Source: Alphaproteobacteria bacterium | GTDB taxonomy: Bacteria; Pseudomonadota; Alphaproteobacteria; Rhizobiales; Rhizobiaceae | DNA: 6,649 nt | Assembly: GCA_017308345.1 (NCBI GenBank) | Contig: JAFKFE010001019.1 | Coordinates: 1-6,649 of the forward strand | Direction: 5' to 3' | Part shown: piece after piece, positions 1 through 5,996 of the stretch | Layout of the letters: every line of letters begins with the position of its first letter | Position numbering within the stretch: the first letter of the stretch is position 1 | Position numbers and translations under genes: made by a program | Notes under the pieces: generated by a model | Told to the model about the DNA's origin: nothing | What the model saw: the letters and a program-made list of their open reading frames with translations, nothing else | The model's database searches: none

Positions 1-939
1 GCGATCGCCGAAGGCGACATGGCGATGCTGGCGGTGCCGGCATCGCATGTGACCGGGCTGGTCGCCATCATCCTGACCGCGATGCGCGTCGCGGGCTGCA
101 CCGTCATCCAGCGCGCCTTCAAGGCGCGCCAGTTCCTCGAACTCGCCTCCCGCGAGAAGATCAACTTCACCGTCGTCGTCCCCGCCATCTACAACCTGCT
201 GCTGCTCGATCCCGATTTCATGCAGTTCGACCTTTCCAACTGGAAGGTCGCCGGGTTCGGAGGAGCTGCAATGCCGGAGGCCACGATCGAGCGCCTGGCG
301 GCCGCGCTGCCCAACCTTACCTTGTGCAACGTCTACGGCTCGACCGAAACAAGTTCGCCCGTGACGATGATGCCGCTCGGCGACATCACCAAGGCGCCCA
401 GTTCCGTGGGCAAAGTGCTGCCTTGCGCCGACATCATCATCGTCGACGATCAAGGGCATGAAGTTCCGCCGGGGCAGAGCGGCGAGCTTCTGATCGGCGG
501 CGCCGTCGTCGTCCCGGGATATTGGGACAATCCCGCGGGCAACAAGGCCGGTTTCGTCATGGGCTATTGGGTGTCCGGCGATATCGGTTCGAAAGACGAG
601 CAAGGCTATGTCTATGTCTTCGACCGCAAGAAGGACATGATCAACAGGGCCGGCTTCAAGGTCTACTGCATCGAGGTCGAAAGCACGCTCGCGCATATTC
701 CCGGCCTCGTCGAAAGCGCGGTGGTGGGCAAGCCGGATCCCGTCCTGGGCGAACGGGTGCACGCCTTCATCTACAGTGACGGCTCACTGAGCGACGAGGC
801 CGCCGTCAAGAGTTTCTGCGCTGAGCGCCTGTCCGACTACAAGGTGCCGGACGGCGTGACCTTCCTGAAGGAACCATTGCCCCGCAACGCCAACGGCAAT
901 GTGCTGAAGAATTCACTGCGCGCGCTGATCACCGGGTAG
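1..939 (+). CDS. Acyl-CoA ligase (class I adenylate-forming enzyme), 5' end outside window
   Basis: The frame is open from base 1, so this is the last 312 residues of a protein of roughly 500. The enzyme would activate a carboxylic acid through an acyl-adenylate to its CoA thioester in the cytoplasm. Visible core motifs in order: the A4-like SHVTG near residues 15-19, the A5 motif YGSTE at 112-116, the A7 aspartate in SGDIG (D194), and A8 around DRKKD (208-212) followed by the hinge and the IEVE segment (224-227). The C-terminal A10 motif reads PLPRNANGNVLK (292-303). The position normally held by the catalytic lysine (GK) is Asn300 (codon AAT, 898-900), so adenylation may be weak or absent. 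The A3 phosphate loop lies outside the window. The acyl-CoA dehydrogenase gene follows after about 100 bases in the same direction, which suggests one pathway. Family assignment is secure; the substrate (fatty, aromatic or alicyclic acid) is unknown. Confidence 0.93.
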   Translation, partial: AIAEGDMAMLAVPASHVTGLVAIILTAMRVAGCTVIQRAFKARQFLELASREKINFTVVVPAIYNLLLLDPDFMQFDLSNWKVAGFGGAAMPEATIERLAAALPNLTLCNVYGSTETSSPVTMMPLGDITKAPSSVGKVLPCADIIIVDDQGHEVPPGQSGELLIGGAVVVPGYWDNPAGNKAGFVMGYWVSGDIGSKDEQGYVYVFDRKKDMINRAGFKVYCIEVESTLAHIPGLVESAVVGKPDPVLGERVHAFIYSDGSLSDEAAVKSFCAERLSDYKVPDGVTFLKEPLPRNANGNVLKNSLRALITG

Positions 940-1034: not shown

Positions 1035-1039
1035 AGATG

Positions 1040-2296
1040 ATGAACTTCGAATATTCACCAAAGGTCCAGTCTTTCAAGGCGGAACTCAACCGGTTCATGG
1101 AAGATCACATCCTGCCCAACGACCGGCGCTGGCATGAAATAGTCAACTCCGGCGCCTATCCAAGCGAAGTGGTCGAGCCGCTGAAGGACAAGGCCAGGAG
1201 CGCCGGGCTTTGGAACCTGTTCCTTCCCGCGCTTCGTCCGGACGAACCGGGGACGGCGCTGAGCAATGTCGACTATGCGCCCCTGGCCGAGATCATGGGG
1301 CGCGTGCCCTGGGCTTCGGAGGTGTTCAATTGCAGCGCGCCGGACACAGGCAACATGGAAATTCTCCACATGTTCGCCACACCGGCCCAGCGGGAGCAAT
1401 GGCTCAATCCGCTGCTGCACGGCAAGATACGGTCTGGCGTGTCCATCACCGAGCCGGACGTGGCATCGTCGGACCCGACCAACCTCTCCACGACGATCGA
1501 TCGCGACGGCGACCATTTTGTCATCAACGGGAGCAAATGGTTCACGACGGGCGCGCTGCATCCGCTCTTTGCCTTCACCCTGGTGTTCGGCGTTTCCGAC
1601 AGGTCGCCGGACGCGCCGAAACATTCCAAGCATTCCTTCGTGATCGTGCCGGTGGGCACGCCCGGATTCAGCGTCGTGCGCGATGTCACCCTGATGCACC
1701 ACCACTCGCCCGAAGGACATTGCGAGGTGCGCTTCGAAAATGTCCGCGTGCCGGTCACGAATCTCCTTGGAGAGGAGGGGGCGGGGTTCGCCATCGCGCA
1801 GGCCCGTCTGGGACCGGGCCGGATCCATCATTGCATGCGCACGATCGGCCAATGCGAACTCGCCCTGGAACTGATGTGCGATCGCGCGCTCAGCCGATCC
1901 ACCTTCGGCAAATCCCTGGCGGACAATGCCAACATCCAGGACTGGATCGCCGAATCCCGGATCGAGATCGAGCAGGCCCGGCTGTTGAACCTGAAAGCGG
2001 CCTGGCTTATGGACGTTGCCGGGAACAAGGCCGCCAAAAGAGAAATATCGGCAATCAAAGTCGTTGCCGCTCGTTTACAGACAAAGGTTGCCGACCGGGC
2101 TATGCAGGTCTTTGGAGCAAAAGGATTGACTTCGGATACTCCGCTTGCATTTCTGTGGACTTGGGGCCGGGCGCTGCGCTACATCGACGGGCCTGACGAG
2201 GTTCATCTGCGCGGCATCGCTCGCGACGAACTGAAGGCCGCGAAAATGCGCGGGGCAGCGGCGAATTCCGCGAAAGACGTGCCGCCCGCGATTTGA
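1040..2296 (+). CDS. Acyl-CoA dehydrogenase, ACAD10/11-like
   Basis: This 418-residue flavoprotein would introduce a 2,3 double bond into an acyl-CoA and pass electrons to ETF. The layout is the standard one: an all-alpha N-terminal domain (to about residue 125), a middle beta domain with the flavin/substrate segment SITEPDVASSD (135-145) and KWFTT (166-170), then the C-terminal helical domain with RSTFGK and QVFGAKGLTSDTPLA. The end reads RYIDGPDEVHLRGIAR. This aligns without gaps with the YEGTxxI-type end of medium-chain enzymes, putting Asp383 at the catalytic Glu position; the GPDEVH signature is typical of the ACAD10/11 branch. That branch in animals is linked to 4-hydroxy acyl-CoA catabolism, but bacterial members are varied, so the substrate stays open. 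The start at 1040 is chosen for RBS spacing; 1037 would add one Met. The ligase lies upstream and the regulator starts 41 bases downstream, probably in the same transcript. Confidence 0.95.
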   Translation: MNFEYSPKVQSFKAELNRFMEDHILPNDRRWHEIVNSGAYPSEVVEPLKDKARSAGLWNLFLPALRPDEPGTALSNVDYAPLAEIMGRVPWASEVFNCSAPDTGNMEILHMFATPAQREQWLNPLLHGKIRSGVSITEPDVASSDPTNLSTTIDRDGDHFVINGSKWFTTGALHPLFAFTLVFGVSDRSPDAPKHSKHSFVIVPVGTPGFSVVRDVTLMHHHSPEGHCEVRFENVRVPVTNLLGEEGAGFAIAQARLGPGRIHHCMRTIGQCELALELMCDRALSRSTFGKSLADNANIQDWIAESRIEIEQARLLNLKAAWLMDVAGNKAAKREISAIKVVAARLQTKVADRAMQVFGAKGLTSDTPLAFLWTWGRALRYIDGPDEVHLRGIARDELKAAKMRGAAANSAKDVPPAI

Positions 2297-2325
2297 GCAA
2301 GATCACCGCGGATACTGCGGCCACC

Positions 2326-2330
2326 AAAGG
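2326..2330 (+). promoter_or_regulatory. Ribosome binding site that sets the GntR start
   Basis: AAAGG stands seven bases before the ATG at 2338. The same frame could begin at a TTG at 2293 that overlaps the dehydrogenase stop codon, but that TTG has no comparable purine-rich site, and the 15 extra residues do not look like GntR sequence. Confidence 0.6.
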
Positions 2331-2337
2331 CGTAAGA

Positions 2338-3333
2338 ATGCTGAACATCGAGAAATTGAGCGTCCCGCCCGCGTATCAGGTCGTGTCGAACGAGTTGAGG
2401 CGGCACATTCTTGCCGGCTCGCTGCGGCCGGGCGATCCCTTGCCCAGCGAAGTCGAGCTCGCCGCCCGATTCGGCGTCAACCGCTCGACCGTGCGCGAAG
2501 GCATACGCCAGCTCGAAAGCGACGGCCTGGTCAGGCGCGAGGGGCGCAAGCGGCTCCTCGTGACGATACCGGATCATGCGGACCTGACGCCGCGCACGAC
2601 GCGTGCGCTCGTCATGCGCGCCGTGACCTTCGGCGAGCTTTGGGATGTGTCGCGGGTGCTGGAGCCCCTCGCGGCCAGGCTCGCCGCGGAAAACATCACG
2701 GAGGCGGAACTGGACGCCCTCAAGCAGAATCTCGAGGCAACGAAGCAGGCCGTCGAGCGGGGGCAGTCGCCGGGCATCCTCGACCTGGAATTCCATACGC
2801 TGCTGTCGGAGGCCGCCCACAATCACGCGCTGCTTTTGTGCCGGGAGCCGGTGGGCCGGTTGCTCTATCCCGCGTTCGAGCAGATCCAGCCCCAGCTTCC
2901 CCAGGCTGCCGGTCGCCTGATAAAAGCGCATACGGAGATCGCGGAGGCGCTGGATTTCAGCTTTCGCGCGGCGCGTTCGGCAAAGAACGTCTCGATCGCG
3001 GCCTGGAAGGCGGCGGTTCCGGCGCATGCCATGAAGGCAGTCCGCTCCTGCTCCAACTGGTCCTCCAGCGGCCGATTGAAATTCTCACGGAAGAGGCGCC
3101 GGGTGCGGACCAGGGCCTCGCGGTTGCCGCCCGACAGCTTTTCCGCGATGGCGGTAGCGCTCCGCAGCAGTTCCGGTGCCGGCACCGTCATTGCAACAAG
3201 TCCGAGGCTCTCGGCCTCGTCGGCGGTCAGCTCTCCTTTCAGGAACGCGAACTTCAGCGCTCTGCCCAGGCCGACCGTGCGAGGCAGGAAGTGCGACAGG
3301 CCGCCGTCCGGCACCGCCGCGATGGCATCATAG
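2338..3333 (+). CDS. GntR-family regulator (FadR/FCD type) with its C-terminus replaced by antisense-derived sequence
   Basis: The open frame encodes 331 residues, against about 230-250 for the family. Residues 13-72 form the winged helix DNA-binding domain, with LPSEVELAARFGVNRSTVRE (35-54) and the wing at GLVRREGRK. An FCD ligand-binding domain follows, with the metal-site pair D149 and H153 (DLEFH) and a third ligand-like H198 in AHTEIAEAL. Family-like sequence stops at about residue 205-207 (2950-2958). From there to the stop at 3333 the frame is the antisense of the crotonase gene and has no regulator character. The last FCD helix, which normally carries a fourth metal-binding His about 22 residues after H198, is therefore missing. 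DNA binding may survive while effector sensing is impaired. It sits directly behind the dehydrogenase gene and is the likely local regulator of the TGTCNGACA sites. GntR/FCD assignment is firm; whether the product is functional is uncertain. Confidence 0.85.
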   Translation: MLNIEKLSVPPAYQVVSNELRRHILAGSLRPGDPLPSEVELAARFGVNRSTVREGIRQLESDGLVRREGRKRLLVTIPDHADLTPRTTRALVMRAVTFGELWDVSRVLEPLAARLAAENITEAELDALKQNLEATKQAVERGQSPGILDLEFHTLLSEAAHNHALLLCREPVGRLLYPAFEQIQPQLPQAAGRLIKAHTEIAEALDFSFRAARSAKNVSIAAWKAAVPAHAMKAVRSCSNWSSSGRLKFSRKRRRVRTRASRLPPDSFSAMAVALRSSSGAGTVIATSPRLSASSAVSSPFRNANFSALPRPTVRGRKCDRPPSGTAAMAS

Positions 3334-3734
3334 GCATATACAAAGCGGCAATCGCGTGCGGCCACCGTCACATCGCAAGCCATCAGGATGCTGAGCCCGG
3401 CTCCCGCCACCACCCCATGGACGCAGGCGACCGTCGGCTTGGACAGGCGCGTCAGCCGCAGGATGGTCCTGTTCAGGCAATGGATCGTAGCGCCGGCGGC
3501 AGCCGGCGCGTCCTCGGCGACGCGCAGATAATCCAGATCGCCGCCGGCCATGAAGGCCCGGCCCTCGCCACGCATCAGCACGGCGCGGATATCCGTGGCG
3601 CCGTCGATCTGAGCCAGCAGCCCGTCAAGCTCCTCGATCATGTCCAGCGTCAGCGCGTTCAAGGCCTCCTCGCGGTCGAAGGCGATCGTCGCGATGCCTC
3701 CTGCTCTTTGCAGCGAAACGAACCGGCGAGTCAT
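2865..3734 (-). CDS. Crotonase-fold protein (enoyl-CoA isomerase/hydratase family), C-terminus extended by read-through
   Basis: This minus-strand frame of 289 residues starts at the ATG at 3734-3732. It has the crotonase oxyanion-hole segment AFMAGGDL (60-67), the second one at GVVAGAGLSILMACD (107-121), and FLPRTVG (149-155). Aligned with mitochondrial enoyl-CoA hydratase, the two catalytic glutamates are replaced by Ser115 and Tyr135. The aspartate of the PDGG motif (D143) matches the catalytic Asp of PaaG-like enoyl-CoA isomerases. An isomerase or related role is therefore more likely than plain hydration. Family-like sequence ends at about FFAERAARKLK (250-260). The remaining 29 residues are the antisense of the GntR gene, so the native stop codon appears lost. 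The core fold seems complete. It diverges from the second crotonase over a short region holding a candidate operator. Confidence 0.88.
   Translation of the reverse strand: MTRRFVSLQRAGGIATIAFDREEALNALTLDMIEELDGLLAQIDGATDIRAVLMRGEGRAFMAGGDLDYLRVAEDAPAAAGATIHCLNRTILRLTRLSKPTVACVHGVVAGAGLSILMACDVTVAARDCRFVYAYDAIAAVPDGGLSHFLPRTVGLGRALKFAFLKGELTADEAESLGLVAMTVPAPELLRSATAIAEKLSGGNREALVRTRRLFRENFNRPLEDQLEQERTAFMACAGTAAFQAAIETFFAERAARKLKSSASAISVCAFIRRPAAWGSWGWICSNAG
2952..2966. other. Tail-to-tail junction of the GntR and crotonase genes
   Basis: Family-like sequence of the plus-strand regulator ends just left of this interval, at the codons for AEAL (2941-2952). That of the minus-strand crotonase ends at its right edge, at the codons for ERAAR. 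No stop codon for either gene and no intergenic sequence lie between them. This is what a deletion joining two convergent genes at their 3' ends would leave. The exact breakpoint cannot be fixed without an intact relative; an inversion endpoint or assembly chimera would look the same. Confidence 0.6.
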
Positions 3735-3760
3735 GGCTTTTACCGTCCAATTTGTCTAAC

Positions 3761-3769
3761 TGTCGGACA
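3761..3769. promoter_or_regulatory. Candidate GntR operator between the divergent crotonase genes
   Basis: TGTCGGACA is a perfect 4+1+4 inverted repeat and is followed by A, giving TGTCNGACAA. It lies 27 bases before the minus-strand crotonase start and 54 bases before the plus-strand one, so it could control both. A further TTGTC half-site stands at 3752-3756. The pattern fits the TNGTNNNACNA consensus known for FadR-subfamily GntR proteins except at its first base. The same nine bases recur, on the opposite strand, before the transporter genes. Confidence 0.55.
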
Positions 3770-3810
3770 AGCCGACGTTGATGGCGGACACGAAACTTGT
3801 CAACTCCAAG

Positions 3811-3823: not shown

Positions 3824-4675
3824 GTGGACACTGAAATCAAATGCGAGGTGGATGGACGCGTCGCGACGATCACGTTGGACGGGCCAGCGAAGCTGAACGC
3901 CATAACGCAGAATGGCATAGACGATCTTTTCGAAGCTCTTGATGAGGTCGACCGCAACGATGCCGTAAGGGCGGTCGTGGTGACGGGGGCGGGCCGGGCA
4001 TTCTGCGCGGGGACCGACCTGACCAACGGTTTCGCCCTGCCCACCGGTGGCGATCCGGTGACCGGCGAAGGCGTGCCGGCCGACCTCGGCGCAAAAGTCG
4101 TGCTGCGTATTTTCCGGATGAACAAGCCGGTCATCGGCGCGATCAACGGCCCTGCGGTCGGGTTTGGGGCCTCGGTTACACTCCCGATGGATATGCGGAT
4201 CTGCTCGACCCAGGCCCGCTTCGGCTATGTCTTTGTCCGGCGCGCCATCGTGGCGGAGTCCTGCTCGAGCTGGTTCCTGCCGCGCATCGTGGGTATCGCG
4301 AATGCCGTCGAATGGATGATGACCGGCAGGATGATCGAGGCCGACGAAGCGTTGGCTAAAGGGCTCGTCCATGAAGTCGTCAGCCCGGAAGACCTGATGG
4401 CGCGGGCGCTGCGGAAGGCGAACGAGATCGCCGCCGACGGGGCGCCCGTTTCAGTCGCGATGACGCGGCGTCTGCTCTGGCGCATGCTGGGCGCGAGCCA
4501 TCCAATCGTTGCGCATCGTTACGAGTCGCGGGCGCTGGTGGCTGCCCTTGCGCTGCCGGACGTCGCCGAGGCCATGGCCGCATATAAGGAAAAACGGCGG
4601 CCAGGTTTCAACGCCTCGATCAGTGCTCATGATCTTGCCTCCGACTGGTGGGCCAGCGACGACACGCCCTTGTAG
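3824..4675 (+). CDS. Enoyl-CoA hydratase/isomerase-family (crotonase-fold) protein
   Basis: The product has 283 residues, slightly longer than the usual 255-270. It shows the crotonase core: VDGRVATITLDGP (9-21), the oxyanion-hole segment FCAGTDL (60-66), the second one at GPAVGFGAS (109-117), and SSWFLPRIVG (148-157). The two glutamates of classical enoyl-CoA hydratase are replaced by Ser117 and Phe137. Glu145 in RRAIVAESCSSW occupies the position of the PaaG-type aspartate, a layout seen in a branch of crotonases with RRGxxPE-SSWFLPR sequences. It probably acts as hydratase, isomerase or another CoA-thioester enzyme of the same pathway; the exact reaction is open. It is clearly different in sequence from the minus-strand crotonase, so the two are unlikely to be a recent duplication. 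The GTG start is chosen from the AAAGGG ribosome binding site. A candidate GntR operator lies upstream. Confidence 0.92.
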   Translation: MDTEIKCEVDGRVATITLDGPAKLNAITQNGIDDLFEALDEVDRNDAVRAVVVTGAGRAFCAGTDLTNGFALPTGGDPVTGEGVPADLGAKVVLRIFRMNKPVIGAINGPAVGFGASVTLPMDMRICSTQARFGYVFVRRAIVAESCSSWFLPRIVGIANAVEWMMTGRMIEADEALAKGLVHEVVSPEDLMARALRKANEIAADGAPVSVAMTRRLLWRMLGASHPIVAHRYESRALVAALALPDVAEAMAAYKEKRRPGFNASISAHDLASDWWASDDTPL

Positions 4676-4717: not shown

Positions 4718-4747
4718 TTGACGGGCATAGCCAGACATGGTTATGTC
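4718..4747 (+). promoter_or_regulatory. Candidate sigma-70-type promoter of the transporter genes
   Basis: TTGACG at 4718-4723 matches five of six bases of the -35 consensus. A weak TATGTC -10 element at 4742-4747 follows with an 18-base spacer. The TGTCCGACA palindrome overlaps the -10 element, as expected if a bound repressor blocks the polymerase. The -10 match is poor, so this is tentative. Confidence 0.35.
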
Positions 4748-4752
4748 CGACA
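4744..4752. promoter_or_regulatory. Candidate GntR operator upstream of the transporter genes
   Basis: TGTCCGACA is the exact reverse complement of the nine-base palindrome at 3761-3769, and here too an A follows. It lies about 120 bases before the binding-protein start in the 196-base region between the second crotonase and the transporter. The shared palindrome suggests that one regulator controls both the catabolic and the uptake genes. Confidence 0.55.
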
Positions 4753-4871: not shown

Positions 4872-5996
4872 ATGAATTTCTGGAAATCCGCCGCCTTGGG
4901 TCTGGCAACCGCAGCGGTCGCGGCCCTGTCGGTGACGTCGCAGGCGATGGCTGAGAAGCGGCACAAGATCTATCTGAGCATGAGCTATATCGGCAACGAC
5001 TGGCAGGCCGAGGCGGCCAATATGCTGAAGGCCATGGCGGCGTCGAAGGAGTATGCCGACAAGGTGGATCTGAAGGTCCAGGTGGCCGGCCCGAACGCCC
5101 AGAAGCAGATCCAGCAGATAAACGCCATGGTGCAGGCCGGGGCGGAGGCGATCATCGTCTACCCGATCTCACCCACCGCGCTCAACGAAGCGGTCAAGAA
5201 TGCCTGCGCCAAGGGCGTCACCATCGTCGCCTATGACGGTGTGATCGAGGAGCCGTGCGCCTACAACGTCCATATCGATCAGGCCGAATGGGGCCGGGTG
5301 ACGGCGCAGTGGCTTGCCGACAAACTCGGCGGCAAGGGCAATATCGTGATGATCACCGGTGTCTCCGGAACCTCCGTCGACACGCTGCGCAACAAGGCCG
5401 CTCGCGAGGTTTTCGCGAAATATCCCGACATCAAGGTGGTCGCCGAGGCGAATGGCATGTGGAGCCAGGCGGTCGCCCGCACCGAGTTGGCGAAGATCGT
5501 GGCCACCCATAGCTGGGATACGCTGAACGGCTTGTGGATGCAGGTCGGCTGCTACACGGCTAACTCGATGCAGCTCGAGGCTGGTGTCGCCGACGACAAG
5601 GTTCTGCCTTGCGCGGGCGAGGGATCCAATGGCCACCGTGTGCAGATGCTTCCCAAGGACACGCAGGCCGCCGGCTCGAACGGCACCTACAGGCCGCTCG
5701 GCGCGCCCAGCATCTCGGCGAGCTCGCAAGCCTATCCGGGCGCTTATGCCTTCAAGATCGCGATGGAGGTCTTGGCGAAGAAGAAAGTCGAGAAGACCAC
5801 GCTCCTGTCTCCCGGCGCGGTCACGAACGACAAGGTCAAGCTGTGCCAGACTGGCTCCTGGGAGGAAATGAAGGCCGGCTGCAACACGTTCCAGCCCGAG
5901 ATCATTCCCAATCCCGGCTGGTACGCCTCGATCTTCTCGCCGGATCTGCCGCAGGTCGGCCTCAACGCCGCGCTTACCGGCACGCCTGAAGAGTAA
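4872..5996 (+). CDS. Sugar-type ABC transporter periplasmic substrate-binding protein
   Basis: The product has 374 residues. Residues 1-27 are a typical Sec signal peptide: Lys at 5, a hydrophobic stretch from A7 to V21, and cleavage expected after AMA27. There is no lipobox cysteine, so the mature protein should be free in the periplasm. The rest reads as a type I (RbsB-like, Peripla_BP_4) binding protein: beta strand KIYLSMSYIGNDW (32-44), QIQQINAMVQAGAEAIIVYP (79-98), KGVTIVAYDG (114-123), and the second lobe starting near GNIVMITG (156-163). Tryptophans at 44, 140, 197 and 222 are candidate ligand stackers. The mature protein has six cysteines (112, 129, 227, 247, 325, 337), which is many for this family. 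It is followed by a hairpin and the ATPase gene, and preceded by a candidate GntR operator. The ligand is unknown: a sugar, cyclitol, glycoside or other polar ring compound is plausible given the neighbouring CoA-thioester genes. Confidence 0.94.
   Translation: MNFWKSAALGLATAAVAALSVTSQAMAEKRHKIYLSMSYIGNDWQAEAANMLKAMAASKEYADKVDLKVQVAGPNAQKQIQQINAMVQAGAEAIIVYPISPTALNEAVKNACAKGVTIVAYDGVIEEPCAYNVHIDQAEWGRVTAQWLADKLGGKGNIVMITGVSGTSVDTLRNKAAREVFAKYPDIKVVAEANGMWSQAVARTELAKIVATHSWDTLNGLWMQVGCYTANSMQLEAGVADDKVLPCAGEGSNGHRVQMLPKDTQAAGSNGTYRPLGAPSISASSQAYPGAYAFKIAMEVLAKKKVEKTTLLSPGAVTNDKVKLCQTGSWEEMKAGCNTFQPEIIPNPGWYASIFSPDLPQVGLNAALTGTPEE

Follow-up and report, generated by a model that had tools for sequence, protein, structure and literature searches.

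What produced a pair of convergent genes, each of which reads on through the antisense strand of the other? The question is raised by a stretch of 6,649 nucleotides (the window), which makes up record C1156 in its entirety; the MAG that it comes from is fragmented (1307 records, 80% complete). A regulator of the GntR/FCD type and an opposing crotonase lie tail to tail in it, and both frames are open in the ORF list over an antisense overlap of 469 bp at 2865-3333. The first-pass annotation had put this overlap at about 470 bases and had explained it by a single deletion across the end of the regulator and the crotonase stop codon.

Profile matches show where each protein leaves its family. The regulator has the GntR winged helix (2-63 of 64 profile positions), though it lacks a complete FCD domain: the FCD match covers only positions 1-107 of 125 and ends at residue 205. 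The crotonase retains nearly the whole of its domain (ECH_1 3-244 of 251), with the family match ending at residue 254. Family character is thus lost in mid-frame in both proteins and without a stop codon, as had been read from the letters of the sequence, and the break falls at 2952-2954 (Table 1).

Table 1. Features of the window, with coordinates counted from its first nucleotide.
Feature	Position	Strand	Remarks
AMP-binding ligase gene, 3' part	1-939		
Acyl-CoA dehydrogenase	1037-2296		
Regulator ORF	2293-3333	+	ATG at 2338
GntR/FCD regulator, retained part	2338-2954	+	Residues 1-205 match the family; GntR 3e-20, FCD 4.4e-18; 97% identity to intact homologue P0001 over residues 1-206
Junction	2952-2954		121 bp of L032 and L033 absent; most likely two assembly pieces joined without a mark
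Run-on of the regulator frame through crotonase antisense	2955-3333	+	Chance stop at 3331-3333
Opposing crotonase ORF	2865-3734	-	
Opposing crotonase, retained part	2955-3734	-	ECH_1 9.9e-40; last residues and stop missing; 264 residues in relatives
Run-on of the crotonase frame through regulator antisense	2865-2954	-	Runs to a chance stop
Second crotonase	to 4675	+	
Putative periplasmic substrate-binding protein gene	ends at 5996		Judged by its sequence
Putative ABC ATPase gene	open at right end of window		Judged by its sequence

A search for relatives with an intact neighbourhood, which had been proposed together with the deletion, found two. One is L032, from a MAG and identical to genome G007 over 801 bases; the other is L033, from Mesorhizobium sp. 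B2-7-1 (G164). The window is 95-97% identical to L032 (95.4% and 96.6% in two blocks) and 92-93% identical to L033, and it is collinear with both save for 121 bp and smaller indels. Against the two relatives together the break can be placed equally well after 2952, 2953 or 2954, and against L032 alone 2951 also fits. The missing 121 bp encode regulator residues 206-245 and the stop codon, as well as the last residues and the stop codon of the crotonase. Regulator and crotonase are 245 and 264 residues long in each of the relatives, where the two genes share a natural convergent overlap of 15 bp (5724-5738 in L032; the same is seen at 1863-1877 in L113). The geometry that had been proposed therefore holds, in that one contiguous loss, seen in the collinear comparison with the two relatives, removes the final long helix of the regulator and both stop codons. 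The supposed loss of intergenic DNA does not, as the ends of the two genes overlap in each relative and leave nothing between them. With neither stop left, each frame continues into the antisense of its neighbour until it meets a chance stop. The largest of the smaller indels is a 10-base gain against L032 at window 2291-2300, just upstream of the regulator start, which is not seen against L033.

Two genome collections were searched for the locus. Among 101 genomes, high-identity matches occurred only in the window's own genome and in G007, the latter in two pieces with offsets differing by 121. A search of 146 genomes from the genus gave long matches in the window's genome, G007 and G164, and the locus is unbroken in the last two. 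The junction is absent from both of these other genomes with the locus in the searched collections, no intact second copy of the locus was found in the MAG itself, and no plasmid relatives were found at the megablast level. A deletion between direct repeats was considered and rejected: only 2 bases are common to the break ends, and the repeats present in L032 and L033 do not bracket the break.

All 120 regulator homologues among the matches listed (of 721) extend at least 37 residues past the break. Six genomes of a family-wide sample gave a hit at 1e-60 or better; the match to P0001 reaches at least residue 236 in five of them and residue 206 in the sixth, the window's own genome. The structural model of P0001 (mean pLDDT 87) shows the lost part as a helix, residues 210-230, that carries H220. 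P0001 keeps D149, H153, H198 and H220, and H220 is found in 120 of the 120 homologues listed. By position, H153, H198 and H220 match the three-histidine metal site of FCD regulators, as that site is set out in the available parts of two papers (PMC7674646, PMC4746285). For the crotonase, none of the 120 homologues listed (of 483) exceeds 279 residues.

Constraint on what is left of the two genes is normal. On the branch leading to the window we counted 9 silent against 2 replacement changes in the regulator and 15 silent against 4 replacement changes in the crotonase. The loss is therefore either very recent or did not take place in the organism.

The order of the records in the MAG bears on this choice. 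From a sample of 60 other records of the MAG, the unbroken series C1140-C1170 was judged for length order. Length order is kept by 23 of its 31 records; the eight that fall out of it are C1144, C1145, C1146, C1156 (the window), C1161, C1162, C1164 and C1166. The window stands between C1155, with 3787 nucleotides, and C1157, with 3786. Two of the exceptions contain runs of N, which we take to be assembly gaps. C1164 consists of 3760+N19+2654 nucleotides between neighbours of 3760 and 3755, and C1166 of 2501+N4+3755 between neighbours of 3755 and 3753; in both, the longest piece fits the order. The same build is found outside the series in C1 (910+N16+3066; next record 3060). Because the longest piece of the records with N runs fits, the record number ranks the longest piece, and records that break the order are joined pieces.

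Five further exceptions in the series carry no N and yet change abruptly at one point when compared with relatives. C1146 has lost 104 bases at 3859 and C1161 29 bases at 3762, both against both relatives; C1145 repeats 31 bases at 3863/3864, again against both relatives (the two copies are 24/31 identical); and C1144 has lost 13 bases at 3874 against G007 alone. In these four records the change falls where a piece of the length required by the order would end. In the fifth, C1162, 77 bases are lost at 3147/3148 against both G007 and G164. All seven exceptions other than the window thus show either N runs (2) or an abrupt change without N (5). Outside the series, C1080 has lost 41 bases at 4234/4235 against G007 alone. 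When the six fitting pieces were substituted and the window and C1162 were left out, all 29 records stood in order. The product of the six single chances of fitting the order is about 1e-15, a rough figure for which, where a record had more than one difference, the one without unaligned bases was used. Some of these records also differ from the relatives in ways that are not abrupt: at 1648-1721 of C1161 (L160), 74 unaligned bases stand in place of about 2.4 kb present in both relatives, and C1145 differs at 1601-1652. Part of C1164 falls in a divergent region.

The controls were records in their proper place by length. Fourteen of the 60 records overlapped the stretches of the relatives that were compared, namely eight exceptions and six order-keeping records (C5, C950, C1141, C1142, C1154 and C1200), the order of C950 and C1200 being judged from distant neighbours. 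Within about 18 kb of aligned blocks, no indel of at least 8 bases was found inside these six. Two larger differences in C5 leave 37 and 97 bases unaligned between the blocks and hence are not abrupt.

Taken together, these observations indicate that the 121-bp loss is very probably an unmarked join, made when the assembler abutted two contigs without marking a gap. A join is favoured over a real deletion because other joined records of the same MAG show abrupt changes of like kind. The assembler would have placed the two contigs end to end without N, and 121 bp would have dropped out at 2952-2954, where the window's own join would lie. The organism itself would then most likely have both genes complete, their tails overlapping by 15 bp as in its relatives. 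Against this reading, the record number implies 3786-3787 nucleotides, whereas a break at this point leaves a right piece of 3695-3697, a shortfall of 89-92; C1162 is likewise short, by 93-95 (3667 instead of 3760-3762). No indel is present in the window at 3786 or 2863. Given this shortfall, the numbering itself does not locate the join of the window. Some scaffolders trim contig starts without checking for overlap. Trimming of the second contig's start over a supposed negative gap would explain the shortfalls of both the window and C1162, and the lengths, together with the way such programs work, suggest as a likely route a scaffolder that assumed a negative gap and trimmed without an overlap check.

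The best of the other explanations is that a recent deletion in the organism itself removed 121 bp, its two ends having 2 bases in common, and so truncated a catabolic regulator and extended the crotonase. We consider this unlikely. The geometry would follow from one clean event, and the kept genes are otherwise intact and normally constrained, as would be expected soon after it. Against this, the record number marks the window as a joined record, other joined records change in the same manner at their joins, both relatives are intact, and the tail of the regulator has no homologue among the candidates searched. The one-step deletion put forward in the first-pass annotation survives as a description of what is missing, and gives way to a probable assembly join as an account of how it came to be missing. 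Were the deletion true, it would cost the regulator its final long helix, which carries the third metal-binding histidine, and thereby probably its response to ligand.

A bolder version of the deletion would be a real and very recent event in which a catabolic repressor lost its last metal-binding helix and gained a 125-residue tail of crotonase antisense, with a low-confidence helix whose histidine aligns under the lost one. We regard this as very improbable. The lengths of the two run-ons were compared with a null model that drew synonymous codons anew according to the codon usage of the window itself (third-position GC 0.81; 5000 draws, frame 1 of each list). The length of the regulator tail was reached in 23% of draws and that of the crotonase tail in 50%. 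The run-on lengths are what codon usage gives by chance; the break itself is not chance. When the flanks of the relatives were joined likewise, the stop fell at residue 240 for L033 and at residue 331 for L032. Homologues of the regulator tail numbered 0 among 1340 candidates at 0.001, and from residue 211 on the tail is predicted with low confidence (block-mean pLDDT 30-69). With chance-like lengths, no tail homologue and a low-confidence structure, the long antisense frames were discarded as a sign of function. The tail histidine that aligns under H220 was given no weight, as it is encoded by antisense crotonase DNA.

Least probable, to the point of being a marginal prospect, is a strain mixture, in which intact and deleted forms coexisted in the sample and the deleted branch of a graph branching at the junction was printed: the shortfall of 89-92 bases could be a contig-end overlap shared at the branch, and two G007 contigs do overlap by 91 bases on the query (2075-2165), but real losses or repeats would be needed at all five of the other joins without N in the series, and the MAG holds no intact second copy.

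We also noted a short palindrome, TGTCSGACA, in the window. One copy lies at 3761-3769, between the divergent crotonases, and another at 4744-4752, upstream of the gene starting near 4872. Both are conserved in both relatives, which have two additional sites near the left end of the compared stretch (sites at 846, 942, 6545 and 7528 in L032 and at 873, 968, 6545 and 7529 in L033); 0.08 and 0.055 sites are expected per 10.6 kb. The more distant relatives L125 and L126 carry one such site about 70 bp upstream of the regulator homologue. The palindrome is a candidate operator of the GntR/FCD regulator.

As printed, the antisense overlap is probably not real biology, although the observation of it was correct. 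What the relatives show at this locus is a catabolic cluster of the ordinary kind, including a regulator of the GntR/FCD type. For genome scans the case calls for caution, as joins without N can mimic both gene-truncating deletions and antisense overlaps. Here it was the record numbering that exposed the joined records. A cheap check is to ask whether a record falls out of the length order of its neighbours, and whether other records of that kind have bases missing or duplicated at a single point when set against relatives. Other readings of broken genes in this MAG should be checked for joins without N (C1144, C1145, C1146, C1161, C1162 and C1080, with 13-104 bases lost or 31 repeated).

Several known systems resemble parts of what is seen here. 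The Meraculous paper, in the part available, reports negative estimates for some of the gaps in scaffolds (PMC3158087). Joins made in short-read assemblies across gaps whose size was misjudged or taken as negative are like those of this MAG in that pieces are placed by pairing, with joins here occurring both with and without N runs. Unchecked trimming, as in the route proposed above, is not described in that part of the paper. Among FCD-domain GntR regulators such as NanR, VanR/Atu1419 and CGL2915, the intact homologue P0001 matches the known folds, whereas the window copy as printed is unlike them in lacking the last long helix with H220. In the stop codon mutation model of convergent overlaps, as presented in the available text (PMC2174442), a frame without its stop similarly reads on to a new stop in the neighbouring gene; in our case both stops were lost together with 121 bp, most likely in the assembly only. 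Deletion-born gene fusions, as far as the accessible portion of that study describes them (PMC12803068), are comparable in that the beginning of a gene would be fused by a deletion to coding sequence from elsewhere. There it is the end of another ORF that is joined, whereas here the tail is antisense and the loss probably did not occur in the organism.
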